Positions 22,955 to 48,740 of a stretch of DNA of 64,000 bases are shown in pieces. The stretch spans positions 62,001-126,000 of the forward strand of contig NZ_JABEQL010000002.1 of assembly GCF_014174215.1 (NCBI RefSeq). Reading direction: 5' to 3'. A program made the translations under genes and the position numbers. A model generated the notes under the pieces. That model saw nothing but the letters and a program-made list of their open reading frames with translations, was not told the DNA's origin and ran no database searches. Within the stretch, counting starts at the first letter, position 1. Every line of letters begins with the position of its first letter. This DNA comes from Gluconacetobacter tumulicola (GTDB lineage Bacteria > Pseudomonadota > Alphaproteobacteria > Acetobacterales > Acetobacteraceae).

Positions 22955-23911
22955 TCATCCGCCGGGCGCGAGAAATGCCTGCATGGCGGGCAGGGACGGC
23001 GCGCCATCGCGGGTGGTCACGCCGTCCAGCCAGGCGTGCCAGGCGTCGGGATGGCCGCGCAGCCAGCGCCGGGCGACCTGGGGCGGGGGCATATGGTCGC
23101 GCTGGATGGCCAGCATCATGATGTTCTCGTCGGGGATCGTGAAGCGGATCCGGGCCAGCAGGCGCGCCGCGTTGGGGCAGTCCGTGCGGTAGCCGCGCCG
23201 GATCACGGTATTGACGGTGGCGCCGCCATCGGGGCCGAAGACCTTGTCGCCGCCGGTCAGGTAGCGCAGGGCGAAGCGCAGGTTCATGGGATGGGGTTCC
23301 CACGCCAGGAACACGATCGGGCGGTGGCTCTGGATCATGCGGTCGACCTGGCTGAGCATGCCCTGCTCGCTGCTTTCCACCAGGCGGAAGCGTTGAAGCT
23401 GGAACTGGTTGGCGCGGATCATGTCCAGCACCAGCGCGTTGCCGTCATTGCCGGCTTCTAGCCCGAAGATCATGTAGCCCAGGCGCGAGCCCCATGCCGC
23501 GATGTCGCGATAATCGCGCAGGCCCGCCTGCCAGACATAATCGGGCACCGCCAGCGTGTAATGCGCGCCCGACAGGTTGGTGGCCAGCCGTTCCACGGAC
23601 CCGTCGGCCAGGAACGGCGCGATCGGGGTGCTGCCCGAGGGTTCCCAATTGCTGAGAAACGCATCCACGCGCCGGTCGCGCATGGCCACGTAGGTCATGG
23701 TCAGGGCCAGCATCGGCGTGCGGGGCGCGTAGCCGAGTGCCTCGAACAGGGTGGCGGCGACGGCGGTGACCGCTTCGGCATCCGTCCAGCCGACATTGGA
23801 CAGGCGGACCGGCGCGCAGGCGGCCGGATCGCCGGATGCGGCATGCGCCCCACCCGTCGGGAGGGCCAGCAGGATCAGAATCGCGAACAGGCGGGCGGTG
23901 CGGCTGGGCAT
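22955..23911 (-). CDS. Periplasmic substrate-binding protein for choline/betaine (OpuAC/ProX type)
   Basis: A 318-residue secreted protein: signal peptide MPSRTARLFAILILLALPTGGAHA, then an OpuAC-family domain. VRLSNVGWTDAEAVTAVAATLFEALGY, DAFLSNWEPS and FLAWEPHPMNLRF supply the Trp/Tyr-rich pocket typical of quaternary-amine binding. AAGGGG lies upstream of the ATG. No permease or ATPase gene is adjacent; the only matching ones in the window are proW and proV, 20 kb away. Confidence 0.85.
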   Translation of the reverse strand: MPSRTARLFAILILLALPTGGAHAASGDPAACAPVRLSNVGWTDAEAVTAVAATLFEALGYAPRTPMLALTMTYVAMRDRRVDAFLSNWEPSGSTPIAPFLADGSVERLATNLSGAHYTLAVPDYVWQAGLRDYRDIAAWGSRLGYMIFGLEAGNDGNALVLDMIRANQFQLQRFRLVESSEQGMLSQVDRMIQSHRPIVFLAWEPHPMNLRFALRYLTGGDKVFGPDGGATVNTVIRRGYRTDCPNAARLLARIRFTIPDENIMMLAIQRDHMPPPQVARRWLRGHPDAWHAWLDGVTTRDGAPSLPAMQAFLAPGG

Positions 23912-37783: not shown

Positions 37784-37821
37784 CGGCATAGCGCCGGACC
37801 GTCCGGTCCGGGAATGGCGGG

Positions 37822-37847
37822 CCGGCGCGGGGGAAATTCCGCGCCGG
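37822..37847 (+). terminator. Strong hairpin terminator after the TonB receptor
   Basis: A 9-bp stem, CCGGCGCGG (37822-37830) and CCGCGCCGG (37839-37847), with loop GGGAAATT, followed by a T-rich run ending in TTTTT. It lies between the receptor stop and the aspartate dehydrogenase-like gene. Confidence 0.65.
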
Positions 37848-37885
37848 TCTTGCTGTTGGTTTTTCCCATTTTCGGAGTCCCGTCC

Positions 37886-38716
37886 ATGCATTTTGCCCCC
37901 TATGCCCGGTCGCGCCCCCTGCGGATCGGGCTGGCTGGCCTCGGCTCGATCGGCATTCAGGTGGCGCGCCTGCTGGATGCGGGGATTCCCGGCCTGGAAC
38001 TGGCCGCCGTGGCGGCGGGGGACCAGGATCGGGCCCGCGCGCGGCTGGCCGGCCTGGCGAATCCGCCGCCCGTGGGCGACCTGGCCATGCTGGGGGAATG
38101 CGATATGGTGGTCGAGATGCTGCCTTCGCGCCTGTTCGTGGATATCGCGCGGCCGACCCTGGCGCGAGGGGCGACGCTGATCGTGGCCTCGGTCGGCGCG
38201 CTTTTGTCCAACATGGAGCTGATCGACCTGGCCCGTGCCGGCGGGGGGCGGATATTGGTGCCCAGTGGCGCCATCCTGGGGCTGGATGCGATCAAGGCCG
38301 CCTGTGAAAGCCGGGTGGCGTCGATCCGGATCGACACCCGCAAATCGCCCGCCAGCCTGGCCGGTGCGCCGCATATCGTCGCGAATGCGATCGATATCCA
38401 TGCCATTGCCGCGCCCACCGTGATTTTTACCGGCACGGCGGATGAGGCCGCCATCGCCTTTCCGGCCAATACCAATGTCGCCGCCGCCCTGGCGCTGGCC
38501 GGGCTGGGGCCCGCGCGCACGGATGTTCGCGTGATTGCCGACCCGGCGGTGGACCGCAATATCCACACGATTACGGTCGAGGCCGATTCCGCGCGCTTTA
38601 CCGCGACGATCGAGATCGTGCCCAATGCGGAAAATCCCCGCAGCGGGCAGTTGACTCCGCGTTCGATCGTCGCCTGCCTGCGCGATCTGGTCTCGCCGAT
38701 CCGCATCGGCAGTTGA
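37886..38716 (+). CDS. Aspartate dehydrogenase-like protein (NadX family)
   Basis: 276 residues with the NAD-binding motif RIGLAGLGSIGIQVARLLDAGI and the family core ASVGALLSNMELIDLARAGGGRILVPSGAILGLDAIKAA, RKSPASLAGAP, ANTNVAAALALAGLGP and DRNIHTITVEAD. Family members oxidise L-aspartate to iminoaspartate or oxaloacetate plus ammonia. The gene sits at the end of an aromatic-type catabolic cluster and not beside nadA or nadC, so it may act on a pathway intermediate instead. The start is the ATG with TCGGAG 12 bases upstream. Confidence 0.85.
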   Translation: MHFAPYARSRPLRIGLAGLGSIGIQVARLLDAGIPGLELAAVAAGDQDRARARLAGLANPPPVGDLAMLGECDMVVEMLPSRLFVDIARPTLARGATLIVASVGALLSNMELIDLARAGGGRILVPSGAILGLDAIKAACESRVASIRIDTRKSPASLAGAPHIVANAIDIHAIAAPTVIFTGTADEAAIAFPANTNVAAALALAGLGPARTDVRVIADPAVDRNIHTITVEADSARFTATIEIVPNAENPRSGQLTPRSIVACLRDLVSPIRIGS

Positions 38717-38743: not shown

Positions 38744-40117
38744 TCAGCATTCCGGGAAATTGACCGCCAGGCCGCCCAGCGCCGTTTCCTTGTAGCGGTG
38801 GTTCATGTCGCGGCCGGTTTCCGCCATGGTGCGGATGACCTGATCGAGCGAGACATGATGGGCGCCGTCGCCATGCATGGCCAGCGAGGCGGCGTTGATG
38901 GCCTTGACCGCGCCGAAGGCGTTGCGTTCGATGCAGGGGATCTGCACCAGGCCGGCGACCGGGTCGCAGGTCATGCCCAGATGATGTTCCATGCCGATCT
39001 CGGCGGCGTTTTCGATCTGGAGCGGGGTCGCGCCCAGCGCCGCCGCCAGGCCCGCCGCCGCCATGGACGAGGCTACACCGACCTCGCCCTGGCAGCCGAC
39101 CTCGGCGCCGGAGATCGAGGCGTTGAGCTTGAACAATCCGCCGACCGCCGCTGCCGTCAGCAGGAAATCATGCATGCCCTGGCGCGAGGCGTCGGGGCAG
39201 AAATCGCGGTAATAGCGCAGTACGGCCGGGATCACCCCCGCCGCGCCGTTGGTGGGCGCGGTGACGACGCGGCCGCCGGCGGCGTTTTCCTCGTTGACTG
39301 CGATGGCGAACAGGCTGACCCAGTCCATCGCCTCGTGCGGGGGGCGCTGGTTGAGGCGGGCGCGTTCCTGAAGGCGTTCGTGCAGTGCCGCCGCGCGGCG
39401 GCGGACCTTGATCCGGCCGGGCAGCGTGCCGTGCTGGACCAGGCCGCGTTCGACGCAGGCCATCATGGTGTCGATGATCCGGTCCAGATAGGCCGTGATT
39501 TCGGCATGGGGGCGTTCGGCATGGGGGCGGAGGCTTGCCTCGTTGGCCAGGACGATTTCCGCGATGCTCAACCCGCTTTCGCGCGTGCGGTCCAGCAGTT
39601 CGATGCCGCTGGTGAAATCCAGCTTCATGTCGGGCTGGGCGTAGCCGGCCTGTTTCGTCGCGTCCTCGGGCACGATGAAGCCGCCGCCGACCGAACAGAA
39701 GCGTGCGGTGTCCAGCACCGTGCCGTCGGCGGAAAGGGCCTGGAACTGCATTGTGTTGGGATGGACGGGCGGGGTCGTGTCGCGGTCCAGCACGATGTCG
39801 TGGGCGGGGTCGAAGGCGACGGCGCGGCCATGGACCGGCACCGTGCGGTCGGCGCCGATCGTGCGCACGATGTCGTCGGCGGCGTCGGGATCGACGCTCT
39901 CCGGCGTTTCGCCTGCCAGGCCGAGGATGACGGCCTTGTCGGTGGCGTGGCCGCTGGCGGTCCATGCCAGCGAGCCGTAGAGCGTGACGCGCAGGCGTGC
40001 GACGGGCATCGCGGGATCGAGATGCGCGATAAAGCGCCGGGCGGCGCGCATCGGCCCGACCGTATGGGACGAGGAGGGGCCGATGCCGATCTTGAAGAGG
40101 TCGAAGAGGCTGATCAT
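38744..40117 (-). CDS. sdaA: L-serine ammonia-lyase (iron-sulfur type)
   Basis: A 457-residue single-chain serine dehydratase: N-terminal beta domain ([23 protein letters not shown]) and C-terminal alpha domain with the cluster cysteines in [32 protein letters not shown]. It converts serine to pyruvate. As third gene after betIB and betA on the minus strand, it completes the route betaine, glycine, serine, pyruvate. The ATG at 40117 matches the family N-terminus exactly. Confidence 0.93.
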
Positions 40118-40205
40118 GGGCGGTGATGGTGCGCCTGCCAGCGGCACGGCACAAGGAGGCGCGCGCCATCTGTACGGCGGAAAACGACAGAGGGCGCGCC
40201 GGAGG

Positions 40206-41873
40206 TCAGGCTTTGCCGAGGCGCTGCCGGGTCTGCCAGTTCGGGGCTTCGAAGAACGGGGCGTTGGAGGCGGGCAGGGGGGGCAGGCCCCTGATGTGAT
40301 CGGCGGCTTTTTCCGCGATCATGATGGTCGGGCCGTTCAGGTTGCCGTTGGTGACGCGGGGCATGATCGAGGAATCGACCACGCGGAGGCCCTCGACCCC
40401 GATCACGCGGGTCTCGGGATCGACCACGGCCATCGGGTCGTCCGTGGCCCCCATCCTGCAGGTGCAGGAGGGGTGCAGCGCGCTTTCGACCTTCCGGCGG
40501 ATGAAGGCGTCGATCCGGTCGTCGCTCGTGCAGTCGGTGCCGGGTTGCAGTTCCTGGCCCCGGAACGGGTCGAAGGCGGGCTGGGCAAAGATCTCGCGCG
40601 TCAGGCGCACGCAGGCGCGCATGTCGGTCCAGTCGTCCGGATGGCTCATGTAGTTGAACTGGATCTTCGGCTTTTCCGCCGGGTCGGCCGAGCGCAGGCG
40701 GACCCGGCCCCGGCTTTTCGAGCGCATCGGGCCGACATGGGCCTGGTAGCCATGGCCCTGCGCCAGGCCCTTGCCGTCATAGGTGACGGCAAGGGGCAGG
40801 AAATGGAACTGGATGTCGGGATAGCGGATGCCGGCGCGGCTGCGGATGAAGCCGCAGCTTTCGAAATGGTTGGTGGCGCCCAGCCCGTCCTTGAACAGCA
40901 GCCAGCGCAGGCCGATCCGGGCGCGGGCCCAGGGCGACATGGCGGAATAGAGCGTGACCGGCTGGCGGCAGGCGACCTGGAAGTAGAATTCCAGATGGTC
41001 CTGGAGATTTTCCCCCACGCCCGGCCGGTCGGCCAGGACCGTGATGCCGTGATCGCGCAGTTCCGCCGCCGGGCCGATTCCCGACAGTTTGAGAAGCTGC
41101 GGGGAGTTGATGGGACCGCCGCAGAGAATGATTTCGCGGATCGCGCGAACGGTATGGGACACGCCATGGCGCGTATAGGCCAGGCCGGTGGCGCGCCGGC
41201 CGTCGAAGAGGAGGCGCGTGACGCGGGCATGGGTTTCCAGCGTCAGGTTGGGGCGTTTGAGCGCCGGGCGCAGATAGGCGTTCGCGGTGCTCCAGCGCCG
41301 GCCGCGATACACCGTCATGCTCATCCGGTCGAAGCCTTCCTGGCGGAAGCCGTTATAATCGCCGGTGCGGCCGTAGCCGGCCTGTTCGCCCGCCTTCATC
41401 CAGGCGTCGTGCAGGGGATTGTCCAGCGTGCCGTATTGCGTGTGCAGCAGGCCACCGCGTCCGCGATAGGAATCCTCGCCCTCCGCGCAATCCTCGGCGC
41501 GGCGGAAATAGGGCAGGACGTGGCGATAGCCCCAGCCGGCAGCACCACTTTCCTCCCATTCCTGGTAATCCAGCGCGTGGCCGCGCACATAGACCATGCC
41601 GTTGATGGAGGAGGAGCCGCCGAGCCCCTTGCCGCGCGGGGTGTGCATGCGGCGATTGTCCAGATGCGGCTCCGGCTCGCTTTCGTAGAACCAGTTGAAG
41701 CGTTTCGAATGCATGGGCATGGCCAGGGCGCTGGGCATCTGCACGATGATCGAGCGGTCGCTGCCGCCGAATTCCAGCAGCAGGACGCGGCTGCGCCCGT
41801 CCTCGGTCAGGCGGTTGGCCAGCACGCAGCCGGCCGAGCCGGCGCCGACGATGATATAATCATAGTCCCGCAT
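40206..41873 (-). CDS. betA: Choline dehydrogenase
   Basis: A 555-residue GMC oxidoreductase. MRDYDYIIVGAGSAGCVLANRLTED binds FAD; PRGKGLGGSSSINGMVYVRGHALDY and GGPINSPQLLKLSGIGP are the GMC signatures. The C-terminal catalytic pair is His in HPSCTCRMG and Asn in TNGNLNGPT. It oxidises choline to betaine aldehyde, feeding the BetB half of the upstream fusion. The ATG overlaps the fusion's stop by one base (TGATG), so the two are translationally coupled. Confidence 0.94.
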   Translation of the reverse strand: MRDYDYIIVGAGSAGCVLANRLTEDGRSRVLLLEFGGSDRSIIVQMPSALAMPMHSKRFNWFYESEPEPHLDNRRMHTPRGKGLGGSSSINGMVYVRGHALDYQEWEESGAAGWGYRHVLPYFRRAEDCAEGEDSYRGRGGLLHTQYGTLDNPLHDAWMKAGEQAGYGRTGDYNGFRQEGFDRMSMTVYRGRRWSTANAYLRPALKRPNLTLETHARVTRLLFDGRRATGLAYTRHGVSHTVRAIREIILCGGPINSPQLLKLSGIGPAAELRDHGITVLADRPGVGENLQDHLEFYFQVACRQPVTLYSAMSPWARARIGLRWLLFKDGLGATNHFESCGFIRSRAGIRYPDIQFHFLPLAVTYDGKGLAQGHGYQAHVGPMRSKSRGRVRLRSADPAEKPKIQFNYMSHPDDWTDMRACVRLTREIFAQPAFDPFRGQELQPGTDCTSDDRIDAFIRRKVESALHPSCTCRMGATDDPMAVVDPETRVIGVEGLRVVDSSIMPRVTNGNLNGPTIMIAEKAADHIRGLPPLPASNAPFFEAPNWQTRQRLGKA

Positions 41874-43966
41874 CAATAGGGTGCCTCGACATCGCCCAGC
41901 GCCACGTAGACGCTCTTGATCTGGGTGTAGTGATCGAGCGCCGCGCGGCTGTTCTCGCGGCCCAGGCCCGATTGCTTGTAGCCGCCGAAGGGGAGCTCGA
42001 TCGGCGTGACGTTATACTGGTTGATCCAGCAGGTGCCGGCCTCCAGCCGCGCGATGACCCGGTGTGCACGGGCCAGGTCGCGGGTGAAGATGCCGGCGGC
42101 CAGGCCGAACGGGGTGGCGTTGGCGCGGGCGATCGCCTCCTCCTCGTCGGTGAAATCCAGGACCGCCATCACGGGGCCGAAGATTTCCTCGCGCACGATC
42201 GTCATTCCGTCATGGCAGTTGACGAACACGGTCGGCTCGACGAAGGCGCCCTGACGCAGGGCGCCGCGCGTGGCCCGCCGGCCACCGATCAGGAGTTCGG
42301 CGCCCTCCTTCTTCCCGGCGGCGATGTAGGACAGGACCTTGCGCATGTGATCGTCGGAGATCAGCGCGCCGACATCGGTTTTCGGGTCGAGCGGATCGCC
42401 GATCGTCATGGCCTGCACCCGTGCCTTCAGCCGTTCGAGGAACCGGTCGCGGATGCCGGATTGGACGAAGACGCGCGTTGCGTTGGAACAGACCTCGCCG
42501 GCCGAATAGAAATTGCCCAGCAGGGCGGCCGACACCGCATTGTCCAGGTCGGCATCGTCGAAGATGATCAGCGGCGATTTTCCGCCCAGTTCCAATGTGA
42601 CATATTTCAGGGTGGCGGCGGCGTCCGCCATGACGCGGCGGCCGGTGCCGACCTCGCCGGTGAGGGATATTTTTCGGATCTGCGGTGCGCGGGTCAGCAA
42701 TTGCCCGGTTTGCCGCGTACCCTGCACGACGTTGAACACGCCGTCGGGCAGGCCGGCCTCGCGGAATATGGCCGCCAGGCGCACGGCCGTGAGCGGGGTG
42801 AGTTCGGCGGGTTTGAAGATCATCGCGTTGCCGCAGGCCAGGGCCGGTGCGGCCTTCCAGCAGGCGATCTGGATCGGGTAGTTCCAGGCGCCGATCCCGG
42901 CCACGATGCCCAGCGGTTCGCGCCGTGTGTAGCCGAACGCCGTCGGCCCCAGATCGACGCAATCGCCGGTCATCGTCGCGGCAAGGGCGGCGAAATATTC
43001 CAACGCGTCGGCGCCGGACAGCACGTCGACGCTGGATGTCTCGGCGATCGGCTTGCCGGTGTCCAGCGTTTCGATCCGGGCCAGATCCGCATTGTCGCGG
43101 CGCAGCAGGTCGGCCGCGCGGCGCAGGATGCGGGCCCGTTCGGCGCCGGTGTGGGTGGCCCATGCGGCCTGCCCGCGCGTCGCGGCCTCGATGGCCTGTG
43201 CGACCATTGCCTCGCCGGCTTCCTCGACTTCCGCCAGCACATTGTTGGTTGCCGGATTGCGGGTTTCGAACCGTGCGCCGTTGCCGGTGGCGGGGCGGCC
43301 GTCGATCCAGCTTGTACACAGCCCCTCCGGCGGGCCGTGCAGGATCGCGGGGGGTGGGGAGAGTGACGGGGCGGCGTCGATCTGGCTGTCGAGAAAGGCG
43401 AGGACCTGCTGGCGGGGCATGCGGCTGTCGAACGCCGCCGGTGGGGCCAGGGCCGCGCGCAGCCATGTGCCGTCGATCAGCGAGGCCAGCGTGTCGGCCG
43501 TGGCATGGGCGCGTATCCGGGGCAGCAGGTGGCCGAGATCGTGCCGCAGGTTCGAGAGCATGCGGGCCTGGTAGGCGCGCTGGATGCGGCCCAGCGTCGG
43601 GCTATGGACGGCCTGCCCCCATAGGGCCAGCCAGATGGCGACCTGGCGGGTGGTGAACTGTTCGCCCCCCAGGCAGACGCCGATCAGGGCCTCCAGCCGG
43701 GCCCGTGGCCCCCGCGCGTCGCGGAGCGCGCGCGCGACGTCGGCCGACAGGGCGGCGGCGGTGCCGCGGAATGCCAGGCCGAGCAGCGCGTCCTTGTCGC
43801 CGAAATAATGGACCAGGAGCGGAGGAGAAACGCCGGCATGACGGGCGATGCGTGCCACCGTGGCGCCGGCGAAGCCGTGATCGACCAGCACGTCGCGCGT
43901 CGCGGCCACGAGTTCCCTGCGGCGCTTCAGTTCGACCGGCGTAAGAGCGGGAGGGGGCTGTTTCAT
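41873..43966 (-). CDS. BetI-BetB fusion: TetR-type repressor joined to betaine aldehyde dehydrogenase
   Basis: One uninterrupted frame of 697 residues. Residues 1-198 are a TetR/BetI protein (HTH about 31-55: GFAGATVARIARHAGVSPPL, then HYFGDKDALL; C-terminal domain with FTTRQVAIWLALWGQAV and LIDGTWLRAAL). A Pro-rich linker covers about 199-217. Residues 218-697 are a full BetB-type aldehyde dehydrogenase (SWIDGRPATGNGARFETRNPAT; catalytic Asn362 in WNYPI, Glu459 in TLELGGKSP, Cys493 in AGEVCSNATRVF). BetI and BetB are normally separate proteins of about 195 and 490 residues. No ATG, GTG or TTG lies between residue 183 and the first BetB strand. The start was placed at 43966, downstream of the operator; a frame from 44056 would run through it. 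It is followed by betA. Confidence 0.88.
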   Translation of the reverse strand: MKQPPPALTPVELKRRRELVAATRDVLVDHGFAGATVARIARHAGVSPPLLVHYFGDKDALLGLAFRGTAAALSADVARALRDARGPRARLEALIGVCLGGEQFTTRQVAIWLALWGQAVHSPTLGRIQRAYQARMLSNLRHDLGHLLPRIRAHATADTLASLIDGTWLRAALAPPAAFDSRMPRQQVLAFLDSQIDAAPSLSPPPAILHGPPEGLCTSWIDGRPATGNGARFETRNPATNNVLAEVEEAGEAMVAQAIEAATRGQAAWATHTGAERARILRRAADLLRRDNADLARIETLDTGKPIAETSSVDVLSGADALEYFAALAATMTGDCVDLGPTAFGYTRREPLGIVAGIGAWNYPIQIACWKAAPALACGNAMIFKPAELTPLTAVRLAAIFREAGLPDGVFNVVQGTRQTGQLLTRAPQIRKISLTGEVGTGRRVMADAAATLKYVTLELGGKSPLIIFDDADLDNAVSAALLGNFYSAGEVCSNATRVFVQSGIRDRFLERLKARVQAMTIGDPLDPKTDVGALISDDHMRKVLSYIAAGKKEGAELLIGGRRATRGALRQGAFVEPTVFVNCHDGMTIVREEIFGPVMAVLDFTDEEEAIARANATPFGLAAGIFTRDLARAHRVIARLEAGTCWINQYNVTPIELPFGGYKQSGLGRENSRAALDHYTQIKSVYVALGDVEAPY

Positions 43967-43984: not shown

Positions 43985-44002
43985 ATTGAACGTCTGTTCA
44001 AT
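43985..44002. promoter_or_regulatory. BetI-type operator palindrome
   Basis: ATTGAAC-GTCT-GTTCAAT, perfect 7-bp arms with a 4-base spacer. It resembles the dyad bound by BetI in the E. coli bet control region. It lies 19-36 bases before the fusion start codon and 134 bases before proW, so it can control both directions. The fused repressor is the natural ligand (inference). Confidence 0.75.
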
Positions 44003-44135
44003 GTCGATTTCGTTCCTGTAAAAGTCGGAATTCTCTCTATCACTTTCCGATTTCATTTCGTTATATGTTCATTCAGTTCGCAGGGGTATCGACGTCCGCG
44101 ATATCGAACACCGACAGACGGGAGCTGCGCGGATC

Positions 44136-44984
44136 ATGGCGCCGGAACAATGGATCGCGGAGCACAAGATTCCGGTGGGTGCCGTCATGGCGGCCGTGGT
44201 GGATGTGGTCCGGAAGCATGGCCTGGGTGTCTTCGACGTGATCACCGATAGCGTCGGCTTCTGTGCCGATGGTCTGACCACGCTGCTGCTGGATCTGCCG
44301 CCCCTGCTGCTGGTGGTGGCCGCCATGGCGGGGGCGTGGTTCCTCCGCCGGTCGGTGGGGCTGGCGGCCCTGGTCGCGCTGGGGCTGCTGTTCATCATCA
44401 ATCAGGGATACTGGAACGAGACGATGGCGACGCTGTCGCTTATCCTGTTCTCGACCGTCTTCTGCATGGCGGTCGGTGTTCCGCTGGGGATCGCCTGTGC
44501 GCATCGTCCCCGGCTGGCGCAGGCGTTGCAGCCGCTTCTGGACCTGATGCAGACCCTGCCGACCTTCGTCTATCTGATCCCGACGCTGATCCTGTTCGGC
44601 CTGGGCACCGTGCCGGGCATGATCTCCACCATCATCTTCGCCGTTCCCGCGCCGATCCGCATGACGCAGATGGGGATTGCCCGGGTGCCCCGGTCGCTGA
44701 TCGAGGCCGGCGAGGCTTTCGGCGCCACCGGGCGGCAGATCCTGTGGAAGATCGAACTGCCTGCCGCACTCCCGATGATCCAGGCGGGGCTGACGCAATG
44801 CATCATGCTCAGCCTGTCGATGGTGGTGATCGCGGCGCTGGTCGGGGCCGGGGGGCTGGGGGTGCCGGTGGTGCGGGCGCTGAATACCGTGCAGGTCGAT
44901 GCCGGGTTCGAGTCCGGATTCGTCATCGTGCTGCTGGCGATCATGCTCGATCGGGTCTGTCGTCCGAAGGATTCGGCTTCGTGA
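44136..44984 (+). CDS. proW: Choline/betaine ABC transporter permease (ProW/OpuAB type)
   Basis: A 282-residue inner-membrane permease with about six helices and the ABC EAA loop (IEAGEAFGATGRQILWKIELPAALPMIQAGLTQ). The segment NQGYWNETMATLSLILFSTVFCMAVGVPLGI is typical of ProW-family proteins. It shares the regulatory gap with the BetI-BetB gene. Its stop overlaps the proV GTG start (GTGA). Confidence 0.9.
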   Translation: MAPEQWIAEHKIPVGAVMAAVVDVVRKHGLGVFDVITDSVGFCADGLTTLLLDLPPLLLVVAAMAGAWFLRRSVGLAALVALGLLFIINQGYWNETMATLSLILFSTVFCMAVGVPLGIACAHRPRLAQALQPLLDLMQTLPTFVYLIPTLILFGLGTVPGMISTIIFAVPAPIRMTQMGIARVPRSLIEAGEAFGATGRQILWKIELPAALPMIQAGLTQCIMLSLSMVVIAALVGAGGLGVPVVRALNTVQVDAGFESGFVIVLLAIMLDRVCRPKDSAS

Positions 44985-46165
44985 GCGAAGGGATCAACGC
45001 GGCGCTGGAGTTCCGCAATGTCGATATCCTGTTCGATCGCGGCAATCGTCGCGGCGCGATCGAGGCTGCGCTGGCCCGGCTTGATGCCGGCGAGACGCGC
45101 GAGGAGATCGGTCGCGCCCTGAAGGTGACCGTGGGGGTGGCGGGGGCGAACCTCGCGGTGGCGCGGGGCGAGATCAGCGTGCTGATGGGGCTGTCCGGCT
45201 CGGGCAAATCGACCCTGCTGCGGGCGGCCAACCGGTTGAACAGGCCGATACGGGGCGAAGTGCGGATCGGCAACGGCCTGGCGTGGCTGGATATCGCGCG
45301 TTGTGATGACGATACGCTGCGCACCCTGCGCAAGACGCGCATCGCGATGGTGTTTCAGCAGTTCGGCCTGCTGCCGTGGCGGACCGTGCGCGACAATGTG
45401 GGGTTCGGGCTGGAACTGCGCGGCATGGCGCCGTCGATCCGGCGGGACATCGTTGCCGAAAAGCTGGAACTGGTTGGTCTGGCGAACTGGGCCGATGCCC
45501 ATGTCCATGAACTGTCGGGTGGCATGCAGCAGCGTGTCGGTCTGGCGCGCGCGTTTGCGACCGATGCCGACATCCTGCTGATGGACGAGCCGTTTTCAGC
45601 GCTCGACCCGCTGATCCGCCGGAAATTGCAGGACGAGCTTCTGGACCTCCAGAAACGGCTGAAGAAGACGATCCTGTTCGTCAGCCATGATATCGACGAG
45701 GCGCTGAAGATCGGCAGCCGTATCACGATCATGCGCGAGGGGCGGATCGTCCAGACCGGCACGCCGGATGATATCGCCTTGCGGCCGGTGGATGACTATG
45801 TCGCGGAATTCATCCGGCACATGAATCCGCTGCCGACCATTGTGGCTGCTGCCGTCATGCGGCGCTTCCAGGACCTGCCGCGCCGGCCGGACGGGATGCT
45901 GGATGGCGGGCGCATCGCCATAGCGCCGGACGCCGCGACCGCGACGATCGCCGATCGGGCCCTGGCCATCCGGCCGCATGGCGCGTGGACGCAGGGGGCG
46001 CTCTGCGTGGTTCCGGCCCAATTGAGCCTGGGCGAAATCATCGCCTTGCGCCAGCGCAGCGGCCTGCCCGTGCTGGTCGAGGTCGAAGGGCGGCTTGTCG
46101 GGCTGTGTGACGATGCGGACATTCTTCAGGCCCTGTGCGGGGAAGCCCGCTTTCGAGCAGGATAG
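44981..46165 (+). CDS. proV: Choline/betaine ABC transporter ATPase (ProV/OpuAA type)
   Basis: 394 residues: Walker A GLSGSGKST, Q loop VFQQFGLLPWRT, signature LSGGMQQRVGLARA, Walker B ILLMDEPFSALDP and H-loop FVSHDIDEA, then a C-terminal regulatory tail with one CBS-like segment (about 330-390). The GTG start is coupled to proW. The glycine betaine family tag is the RTVRDNVGFGLELRG region. The matching binding protein is encoded at 22955-23911. Confidence 0.92.
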   Translation: MSEGINAALEFRNVDILFDRGNRRGAIEAALARLDAGETREEIGRALKVTVGVAGANLAVARGEISVLMGLSGSGKSTLLRAANRLNRPIRGEVRIGNGLAWLDIARCDDDTLRTLRKTRIAMVFQQFGLLPWRTVRDNVGFGLELRGMAPSIRRDIVAEKLELVGLANWADAHVHELSGGMQQRVGLARAFATDADILLMDEPFSALDPLIRRKLQDELLDLQKRLKKTILFVSHDIDEALKIGSRITIMREGRIVQTGTPDDIALRPVDDYVAEFIRHMNPLPTIVAAAVMRRFQDLPRRPDGMLDGGRIAIAPDAATATIADRALAIRPHGAWTQGALCVVPAQLSLGEIIALRQRSGLPVLVEVEGRLVGLCDDADILQALCGEARFRAG

Positions 46166-46295: not shown

Positions 46296-48740
46296 ATGGG
46301 ACAGCCAACAATGAGACATGCCTCGTGTCTTCCGAGATGTCCGCTGCCGACCGGCATGGTCTCGCGAACATTCCTATCCTTTCTCTTGTTGACCTCCTGC
46401 ATCGTCACGAGTCCGGATGCGGCGTTTTCGGCCGAGGCGGGGAATGGGGCCGGCAAGGCAGGCGGGTCACGGCATCGTCATGCGTCGAAGACCGATGCGC
46501 CCGCGTCCGGCCCGGCTGCGAGCCATACGGATGCCCGTTCGCGCGCGGGGGAAGACCTCATGGTGACGTCCATGCGGCATCATGCCAATGGGGCGACGGA
46601 AAGCATGACCCGCACCGAGATGGACAGGTTCGTCCAAGGCAGCAGCCCGATGATGATGCTGTCGCGCAAGCCGGGTATCAATTTCGTGGCCAACGATCCG
46701 CTGGGGGTCGATAGCTGGGGCTCCAGCCTGTATATGCGCGGGTTCCAGCAGGATCAGCTTGGCGTCACGCTGGATGGCGTGCCGCTGGGCGCGCAGACAT
46801 ACCTTCCCTATAACGGCCAGAGCATCAACTTCTCGATCCTGTCGGACAATATCGAGCGCATGGATGTCTCCGAGGGTGGTGGCGATGTGGCATTGCCTGC
46901 CACGACGAATCTGGGTGGCGCGATTCAGATCGTCTCGCGCGATCCGGCGGACAAGTTCGGCGGCAGGATTTCGCAGATGTTCGGCAGCTACAATGCTTTT
47001 CGTACTTTTGGACGCGTTGACAGCGGCAGGTTGAACGCATCGGGTACCAAATTCACGGTGTCTTACGCCCGATCCGACGGCAATAAATGGAAGGGGGATG
47101 GCGAGCAGTTTGATCAGCAGGTGAATGCCAAGCTTGTCCAGCCCATCGGGCAGGACAGCAATGTGAAGGTGTTTTTCAACTGGAACGATGCCACCCAGTT
47201 CAACTACGCCGACCAGACGATCGACATGCTGAACACGCTTGGTCATCGGAACGATTATTACTACCCTGATTATACGCGCGCCTATCTCGCTGCCGTCGGG
47301 GAATTCAGTGGTGCCCTGGCGGCTTACGACGCGGCAGGTGGGGATGCCCTGGATGCATCCTATTTTGACGGCGTGACGCATTCGTCGAGTTATCTGGGTG
47401 GCGTGAATGCTCATCTGGTGCTGAACCGGCGTCTGGCGTGGAATTCCGTGGTCTATGGGCAGGCTGCGAACCAGTGGGGTACCTGGACGACCCCCTATGT
47501 CAGTTCTCCCAATGGTGTGCCGCTTTCCGAGCAGATCAATTTTTCCGGAAACCAGAAGTTCGGCTTTACGACCGCGCTGGAATACAAGTTCAGGAAACAT
47601 ACGATCGATGCGGGTGTCTGGTACGAAAACAACCGTTACCATGTTGTACAGGATATGTTCCAGCAACCAGTGCCCGGTGAGGGTATTCCTGTCAGCGGTG
47701 TGCTGGGCAATTTTGGTACGCCGTTTCAGCGTAACTGGGGTGAGAATTTCAATACCAACAGTTTTCAGTTCCACCTCGAGGATAGCTATCGGCCGATTTC
47801 CAGCCTGACCTTCAGGGCCGGGTTCAAATCCATGCTGGTGACGACGGTCGGGGGAGCCACGGCGAACGACGCCGCCTATACCGGGCAGGAGCAGCTTGCC
47901 AATGGCAGCCTGACCAGCGCGAAGGCATTCCTGCCTCATGTCAATGGAGTATGGCATTTCCTGCCGGGGCATGAAGTCTATTTCGACGTCGCCCGCAATA
48001 TGCGCGCTTACAGTTATGGCGGATATCAGCTGGGATCGACCTTTGGAGGGTTCGCCAATCAGGCAACGTTCGACAGTATCAGGAATACCCTGCGCCCGGA
48101 GACGGCCTGGGTCTACGATGTTGGATATCGCTATATTTCACAGATCGTTGGGGGTTCGCTCAACCTGTATCATGCGGATTTTTCCAATCGTATCCAGAAC
48201 CTGACATCGGGCCCGATTACCGACCCGGTTTCCACGCCCATAGACGTAGGTGGCGTCAGCATGTACGGCGTCGACGCCGCGCTCACGCTTCGCCCGGTCA
48301 GGAATCTCTCGATTACGAATAGTATCAGCTATAATCATTCGACCTACGACGACAATATCATATCGGAAGGCGTGACCTATGCGCTGGCGGGCAAGAGGGT
48401 GGTCGCTTTTCCGCAATTGATGTACAAAGCCGATATTTCCTATAATTGGGGTCCGGCAAGTATTTATGCCAATGCCAATTACATGTCGAAGCGCTATTTC
48501 AGTTACGTCAACGATATGTCGGTGCCGGGTTACTGGCTGACGTCTTTGGGGGCAAGCTACCGATTCGGAAAGATCGGCCCACTGCATGATCTTAAATTCG
48601 ATCTGAATATCTATAATCTTACGAACATATCGTACATTTCCCAGATTGGCGAAAATGGCCTTCCGCTCTCGGGCGATTATCAGTCGGCTCTGGCGGGCTC
48701 CCCGCGCACATATTATGGCACCGTCAGCGTCGCATTCTAG
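46296..48740 (+). CDS. TonB-dependent outer-membrane receptor next to the choline/betaine transporter
   Basis: 814 residues. A hydrophobic signal follows two possible upstream Met starts (the segment MVSRTFLSFLLLTSCIVTSPDAAFSAEA is the likely leader; starts at 46296, 46311 and 46356 are possible). The plug (about 90-215) contains SWGSSLYMRGFQQDQLGVTLDGVPLG and LPATTNLGGAIQIVSRDPADKFGG, and the barrel ends in TYYGTVSVAF. The usual Glu-rich TonB box is weak (GEDLMVTSMRHH). It follows proV by 130 bases on the same strand and carries a BetI-like site in its leader, so uptake of a choline- or betaine-containing compound is a reasonable guess. Confidence 0.88.
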   Translation: MGQPTMRHASCLPRCPLPTGMVSRTFLSFLLLTSCIVTSPDAAFSAEAGNGAGKAGGSRHRHASKTDAPASGPAASHTDARSRAGEDLMVTSMRHHANGATESMTRTEMDRFVQGSSPMMMLSRKPGINFVANDPLGVDSWGSSLYMRGFQQDQLGVTLDGVPLGAQTYLPYNGQSINFSILSDNIERMDVSEGGGDVALPATTNLGGAIQIVSRDPADKFGGRISQMFGSYNAFRTFGRVDSGRLNASGTKFTVSYARSDGNKWKGDGEQFDQQVNAKLVQPIGQDSNVKVFFNWNDATQFNYADQTIDMLNTLGHRNDYYYPDYTRAYLAAVGEFSGALAAYDAAGGDALDASYFDGVTHSSSYLGGVNAHLVLNRRLAWNSVVYGQAANQWGTWTTPYVSSPNGVPLSEQINFSGNQKFGFTTALEYKFRKHTIDAGVWYENNRYHVVQDMFQQPVPGEGIPVSGVLGNFGTPFQRNWGENFNTNSFQFHLEDSYRPISSLTFRAGFKSMLVTTVGGATANDAAYTGQEQLANGSLTSAKAFLPHVNGVWHFLPGHEVYFDVARNMRAYSYGGYQLGSTFGGFANQATFDSIRNTLRPETAWVYDVGYRYISQIVGGSLNLYHADFSNRIQNLTSGPITDPVSTPIDVGGVSMYGVDAALTLRPVRNLSITNSISYNHSTYDDNIISEGVTYALAGKRVVAFPQLMYKADISYNWGPASIYANANYMSKRYFSYVNDMSVPGYWLTSLGASYRFGKIGPLHDLKFDLNIYNLTNISYISQIGENGLPLSGDYQSALAGSPRTYYGTVSVAF

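Follow-up and report, generated by a model that had tools for sequence, protein, structure and literature searches.

A fused betI–betB gene in a choline operon

We analysed a 64,000-nucleotide stretch of the Gluconacetobacter tumulicola genome (contig NZ_JABEQL010000002.1, positions 62,001 to 126,000; the window, whose own numbering is used here), in which a single gene on the minus strand, betIB, encodes a BetI repressor and a BetB betaine aldehyde dehydrogenase (BADH) in one polypeptide. The frame runs through 697 codons without interruption, from an ATG at 43966 to a TGA at 41875–41873, and contains the following parts.

41873–43966, minus strand: betIB, fused BetI–BetB coding sequence (CDS), a single frame with Pfam and NCBIfam matches to both halves
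43781–43912, minus strand: TetR_N helix-turn-helix (HTH), residues 19–62 (Pfam PF00440, 50.1 bits, E 2.3e-13)
43379–43708, minus strand: BetI-type C-terminal domain (TetR_C_6), residues 87–196 (Pfam PF13977, 80.2 bits, 1.7e-22)
43313–43378, minus strand: Pro-rich linker, residues ~197–218, marked by a low predicted local distance difference test score (pLDDT) at 200–213 and by the ratio of nonsynonymous to synonymous substitution rates (dN/dS)
41876–43312, minus strand: BetB betaine aldehyde dehydrogenase, residues 219–697 (TIGR01804 and PRK13252.1 above cut-off; Foldseek)
42488–42490, minus strand: TGT codon of the catalytic cysteine, C493 (invariant in all 49 fusions aligned; counterpart of C286 in Pseudomonas BADH)

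An earlier note on this DNA, made from the sequence alone, had described a continuous frame holding a complete BetI, a Pro-rich linker and a complete BetB, and the profile searches bear this out, with Pfam and NCBIfam matching both families end to end. TetR_N and the BetI-type C-terminal domain both score above their Pfam cut-offs; rather than forming a separate polypeptide of ~195 residues, the BetI half lies inside the 697-codon frame with BetB. The Aldedh domain spans residues 229–686 (Pfam, E 7.6e-176), and the BetB half scores 784.2 bits against PRK13252.1 (cut-off 593) and 680.4 bits against the BADH family TIGR01804 (cut-off 668.6). In Pseudomonas BADH, the aligned counterparts of N362, E459 and C493 are N153, E252 and C286, the last two of which are named in PDB titles, and the three fusion residues are invariant in the 49 aligned fusions; judged by these residues, the BetB half appears catalytically intact, as the note had proposed. 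An alternative, longer open reading frame starting at 44056 is absent from a 92% identical relative (L011), and the ATG at 43966 is kept in all six aligned sequences. Searching the organism's own genome with the fusion gave 12 matches: the fusion itself, ten to the dehydrogenase half, of which one begins at residue 180, and a sole other match confined to the BetI half (28% identical, residues 6–97). Among these matches we found no second close BetI.

In an AlphaFold model built from 49 sequences (predicted template modelling score, pTM, 0.64), the TetR helices and most of the aldehyde dehydrogenase fold are formed, the BetI helices reach residue 198, and linker residues 200–213 have pLDDT below 50 (32 for the block 201–210), as a disordered joint. 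The best 50 of 1608 Foldseek matches were all aldehyde dehydrogenases, solved BADHs first, and the best 60 of 264 PDB sequence matches cover the second half only.

The gene sits between choline dehydrogenase and a divergent choline transporter of the ATP-binding cassette (ABC) type.

40206–41873, minus strand: betA, choline dehydrogenase (TIGR01810, 827.8 bits, cut-off 732.1)
44136–44984, plus strand: choW, divergent choline ABC transporter permease (TIGR03416, 384.7 bits, cut-off 363)
44939–46165, plus strand: choV-like gene, divergent choline-type ABC ATPase, start approximate (TIGR03415, 476.4 bits, slightly below its cut-off of 483.75)

The ATG of betA overlaps the stop codon of betIB by one base (TGATG). 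Among 55 fused loci from the genome_contigs search, near-copies removed, betA lies downstream in the same direction in all 55, and choV and choW lie divergently upstream in 37 and 35, respectively.

Several other genes were noted in the surroundings. A gene for a ChoX-like choline-binding protein is located ~20 kb away from choW and choV, at 22976–23833 on the minus strand, and scores slightly below the TIGR03414 cut-off (369.8 against 379 bits); contig C28 carries another such gene, and many fused relatives have a gap of 1.2–1.8 kb between the fusion and choW that could hold choX. Just after betA is an L-serine ammonia-lyase gene (38744–40147, minus strand; TIGR00720 above cut-off), followed by an aspartate dehydrogenase gene (37814–38716, plus strand; PRK13302.1 above cut-off); within the fetched stretches of the 55 fused loci, homologues of these stand near the fusion in two loci and one locus, respectively. 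Beyond the choline ABC genes lies a TonB-dependent-receptor-like gene (46296–48740, plus strand; TIGR01783, 96.6 bits, under the 223.5 cut-off), and the fusion of Komagataeibacter saccharivorans is likewise flanked by a TonB-dependent receptor.

The fusion is shared by diverse relatives

Nine of the 14 genomes of the genus carry a full-length, stop-free fusion. In one more the sequence is truncated at the end of a contig, and the remaining four lack a close BetB (best match 44%). Beyond the genus, the best 80 of 546 relatives in the genome_contigs search comprised 74 single-frame fusions, five side-by-side split pairs (L070, L105, L107, L113 and L116) and one contig edge, a set that is biased to fusions by the fused query and partly repeats genus genomes. 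Fusions were found in Acetobacteraceae, Hyphomicrobiales, Caulobacterales, Sphingomonadales and gammaproteobacterial metagenome-assembled genomes. At E 1e-150 or better, 29 of 299 genomes in a family sample gave a match, 16 of these 29 being uninterrupted full-length fusions; in a class sample, 58 of 387 genomes matched, with three uninterrupted fusions and a fourth (G653, L154) broken inside BetB; and in a phylum sample, 136 of 397 matched, with four uninterrupted fusions by alignment and one (G884, L187) fused by profile. The three samples overlap, and 30 loci were fetched per sample, so that these fusion counts are lower bounds. Overall, the fusion is rare, at ~1 in 100 genomes, but scattered widely. 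The broken frame of L154 lies on a 4.4 Mb contig and may reflect decay or an assembly error. In K. saccharivorans, the fusion is carried on plasmids of 218 kb (L197, NZ_CP023037.1) and 222 kb (H2, NZ_CP036405.1).

These comparisons bear on whether the long frame is a missed stop or a frameshift introduced by sequencing or assembly. The junction of betIB is GC-rich and contains a C run, which is all that was noted in this connection; no support for an artefact was found. Relatives within and beyond the genus keep the same open frame, and the linker shows one-residue gaps among relatives, yet the reading frame is kept. We therefore rejected an artefact, which we regard as next to inconceivable. 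The earlier note had judged a missed stop unlikely and had suggested searching other genomes for such fusions next to betA; both the nine full-length genus members and the 74 single-frame relatives, with betA in every one of the 55 loci, agree with it. We conclude that betIB is a true BetI–BetB fusion, with both halves complete and conserved, inside a choline operon.

The fusion is probably made as one product

From the end of the BetI profile to ten residues before the NPAT motif, the betIB junction contains no ATG, GTG or TTG. The nearest ATG upstream of the BetB half is that of Met183, within the last BetI helix (182–198), and no AGGAGG-like sequence was seen ahead of it. A separate BetB made by ordinary initiation would thus be hardly possible in the window, to judge from these codons. 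Across 66 fusions, the linker ranges from 0 to 28 residues; 23 have no start codon in the junction and 23 have an ATG there. Eleven keep an in-frame junction start with a Shine–Dalgarno-like match of 4–6 bases, which in L050 is AGGAGG. The statement in the earlier note that there is no usable internal start holds for the window and for 23 of the 66 fusions but may not hold for these 11, so that some other fusion lineages could also make a separate BetB.

If so, the long frame might be real and the working proteins nevertheless be separate BetI and BetB, produced by internal initiation or cleavage. The 11 junctions with a start and a ribosome-binding-like match, among them L050 with its AGGAGG, are what such a scheme would draw on. 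Against it stand the lack of a junction start codon in the window and in 23 fusions, and six sphingomonad rows (L086, L089, L092, L094, L106 and L110) in which the linker, by profile extrapolation, is 0–3 residues long and the usual BetB start is not recognisable. We consider this scheme improbable. In one Acetobacteraceae locus (L129), recognisable BetI sequence ahead of BetB is limited to its final part, the HTH part is unreadable and an in-frame Met stands at the junction.

Both halves are under purifying selection

In 11 pairs drawn from ten sequences, the window included, dN/dS was 0–0.39 for the HTH, 0.03–0.48 for the BetI C-terminal domain, 0.21–1.01 for the linker and 0.07–0.24 for BetB, and the linker had the highest value of the four regions in eight pairs. 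The BetI and BetB halves are thus both under purifying selection. The HTH residues H53, Y54, F55 and K58 are conserved alike in 66 fused and 33 split BetI sequences, and the C-domain residues W112, W116, D165 and W168 are the same in both. Because these strongly conserved C-domain residues are shared, an unchanged effector, choline, would fit. Letters specific to the fused BetI include L50, L99 and G117 (each 100% of 66 fusions) and Q133 (98%), which occur in 3–12% of the 33 split BetI sequences.

These values also speak to the idea that the BetI half is an idle vestige and the enzyme alone works. BetB genes with no BetI in the 1.5 kb of flank fetched (L131–L133, L135, L153 and L173) stand, in the BetB tree, within the clade to which all fusions belong, and L129 has no readable HTH, which indicates that the BetI half can be lost. 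In the fusions compared, however, dN/dS of the BetI half is below 0.5 in all 11 pairs, and both the HTH and the operator described below are conserved. On the strength of dN/dS and operator conservation we disfavour a vestigial regulator, which seems very improbable.

A BetI-type palindrome lies upstream of most fusions

Inside the 169-bp divergent spacer, a candidate binding site ends 20 bp ahead of the betIB start codon.

43986–44001, no strand assigned: putative operator TTGAACGTCTGTTCAA, inverted repeat TTGAAC/GTTCAA with a 4-bp centre (pattern search; aligned relatives)

The pattern TTGAAYNNNNRTTCAA occurs at a single place in the 4,294,186-base (4.29 Mb) genome; because a reversed control pattern also occurs at one place, what counts is its position in the spacer. 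The outer TTGA and TCAA are kept in five of six aligned relatives around a variable centre, and the most distant (L013) is without them. Counting the 64 of 66 fused rows that have enough upstream sequence, we found TTGA-N8-TCAA within 300 bp upstream of the BetI domain in 53 of the 64, whereas 16 of 2971 windows drawn at random from these loci contain it. The 53 loci have 70 sites in all, against an expectation of ~0.5 based on their remaining sequence. Within 450 bp the figure rises to 57 of 64. DNA binding by the BetI half is thus supported indirectly, since a BetI-type palindrome lies 20 bp upstream in the window and near most of the fused relatives tested.

The palindrome lies in the bet control region, as for a BetI, and its half-site spacing differs from the published one. 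According to the available part of PMC12442346, BetI1 and BetI2 of Ruegeria pomeroyi are alphaproteobacterial BetI repressors whose effector is choline; betB too is under the control of BetI1, the box of which is ATTGACG-CGTCAAT, that is, a TTGA-N4-TCAA core. Unlike the fusion, these regulators are separate genes in that account, and the N4 core is found in only nine of 64 fused loci compared with 27 of 33 split operons (Fisher p 6e-11), a contrast that rests on one to three independent pairs on the tree and so is no statistical proof of cause. The 16-mer is present in 23 of the 33 split operons, where the N4 core often lies inside a longer box containing it, and the Escherichia coli betI–betT spacer holds a 16-mer of the same type, TTGATTGGACGTTCAA. 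We infer that the TTGA-N8-TCAA 16-mer may be the elementary dimer site, and that the split box may consist of two registers that overlap with an offset of four bases.

A pair of 16-mers separated by at least 20 bp was found in 14 of 64 fused loci and none of 33 split loci, in upstream windows of like length. The pairs span 139–166 bp in 13 loci and 109 bp in one (L043, L045, L057, L060, L064, L066, L069, L071, L099, L100 and L123–L126); the 14 loci are not independent, L099 and L123–L126 being near kin. Such paired palindromes could possibly serve as bridging sites.

The fusion probably arose once

Before trees were built, cut or broken sequences (L017, L093, L128, L129 and L154; 167 to 162) and near-copies of at least 93% identity (162 to 124) were removed. 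In a concatenated BetI+BetB tree of the 99 rows that have a BetI, a branch with support 88 (unstarred and not decisive) separates all 66 fusions from the split rows, so that one change of the fused/split label suffices; the best tree itself thus contains the fusion clade. The BetI-only tree likewise places all 66 on one side of a branch (support 79, unstarred). The BetB-only tree of 124 rows needs five label changes, three of them forced by starred branches, which counts against a single origin; of its 58 split rows, however, 25 lack a BetI within the flank that was fetched. Six such genes (L131–L133, L135, L153 and L173), with no BetI in 1.5 kb of flank, lie inside the clade of the BetB tree that holds all fusions and may represent secondary loss of the BetI half. 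A single fusion is the simplest reading and a likely one, and multiple origins were set aside because the BetI+BetB tree needs one change.

The split rows nearest the fusions are from Labrys (L116), Aquibaculum (L070) and G327 (L151). In all 33 split rows with a flanking BetI, betI precedes betB in the same direction, and in 19 of them the two genes share a reading frame, a figure that the search favours. With betI ahead of betB and often in frame, loss of a stop codon could suffice to create the fusion.

A proposed choline-responsive repressor that is also an enzyme

Taken together, the evidence makes it reasonably probable that the betIB product has two functions, as an autorepressor that responds to choline and as the enzyme. 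Without choline, the BetI half would sit on the palindrome at 43986–44001 in the divergent spacer with both directions off, repressing its own operon, betIB–betA, and probably also the divergent choline transporter genes. Choline imported by that transporter would bind the BetI half and release it from the operator; BetA would then produce betaine aldehyde, and the BetB half, presumably an ordinary NAD(P)-dependent tetrameric betaine aldehyde dehydrogenase, would oxidise it. Since both functions share one polypeptide, repressor heads and enzyme subunits would be present 1:1, and build-up of enzyme would directly tighten repression, a form of dosage coupling. Each tetramer would bear two DNA-binding dimers and could bridge two operators where these are present.

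Some observations weigh against this proposal. Eleven of the 66 fusions could additionally make BetB alone from an internal start, and a 16-mer is missing from the nearest 450 bp in seven of the 64 fused loci. The reversed control leaves the genome-wide uniqueness of TTGAAYNNNNRTTCAA as weak evidence, and a promoter scan found no sigma-70-like promoter around the operator. In the AlphaFold model, pLDDT is also below 50 at residues 333–350, 489–495 (around the catalytic cysteine) and 644–690, and the mutual arrangement of the BetI and BetB halves is undefined.

A different logic, in the manner of PutA, would have the dehydrogenase half sense betaine aldehyde, NAD(P)+ or turnover and drive the BetI half on or off DNA. 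The available part of PMC9132996 describes how FAD and NAD+ turn PutA of Ralstonia solanacearum, which also has a C-terminal Aldedh domain, from a regulator into a catalyst, and the fusion-specific residues L50, L99, G117 and Q133 could mark a new interface. Against this, split BetI shares the other residues that are strongly conserved in the BetI half, and a linker that is disordered in the model, evolves fast and varies in length between 0 and 28 residues gives little reason to expect a stiff signalling connection; we think this logic unlikely. Equally doubtful, if bolder, is the idea of a second, independently evolved PutA-like class, in which a TetR-type repressor was joined to an aldehyde dehydrogenase on a single occasion, two repressor dimers are coupled through the enzyme tetramer and bridge paired 16-bp operators, substrate or NAD(P)+ occupancy sets repression, and operator spacing has shifted to suit the fused geometry.

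Relation to known systems

To our knowledge, few transcription factors are fused to a metabolic enzyme of their own operon, and PutA is the textbook case of a repressor–enzyme fusion. The DNA-binding fold of PutA is a ribbon-helix-helix, whereas that of the fusion is TetR/BetI; by Pfam, betIB joins a DNA-binding domain and an Aldedh enzyme on one chain as PutA does, with a DNA-binding part that is analogous, not homologous. As described in the available part of PMC9132996, trifunctional PutA carries its DNA-binding domain and Aldedh-family enzyme on one chain with a proline dehydrogenase domain. No Pfam match to the latter was found in the betIB product at E 0.001, and the first enzyme of the choline pathway, BetA, is a separate gene. 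The E. coli K-12 bet operon shares with the fusion locus the order betI, betB, betA, a divergent choline transporter, both protein families and, with the fusion loci, a TTGA-N8-TCAA 16-mer in the divergent spacer; it differs in that betI (195 residues) and betB are two genes and the divergent transporter is betT rather than an ABC system.

Among the papers listed in searches of an open-access library, we found no description of a BetI–BetB fusion, although one may be described elsewhere; in the available part of PMC7824335, 'fused' refers to methyltransferase genes or a compound. The earlier note, which knew of no described fusion, agrees with these searches. As a sequence the fusion is not rare, and a RefSeq CDS exists under the enzyme's name: WP_254058047.1 of K. 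saccharivorans is the same fusion, encoded by one 2031-base CDS beside betA on a 217 kb plasmid, 62.7% identical and named betaine-aldehyde dehydrogenase for the enzyme only. The fusion is thus hidden under its enzyme's name in at least one RefSeq record.

A point of interest for this protein is whether its DNA binding responds to catalysis, as that of PutA does to FAD and NAD+ according to the available part of PMC9132996. The closely related split operons of Labrys and Aquibaculum offer natural before-and-after controls for the effect of fusion on gene control. The BetI–BetB fusion apparently arose once, has been kept across several orders and comes with a simple, testable operator.

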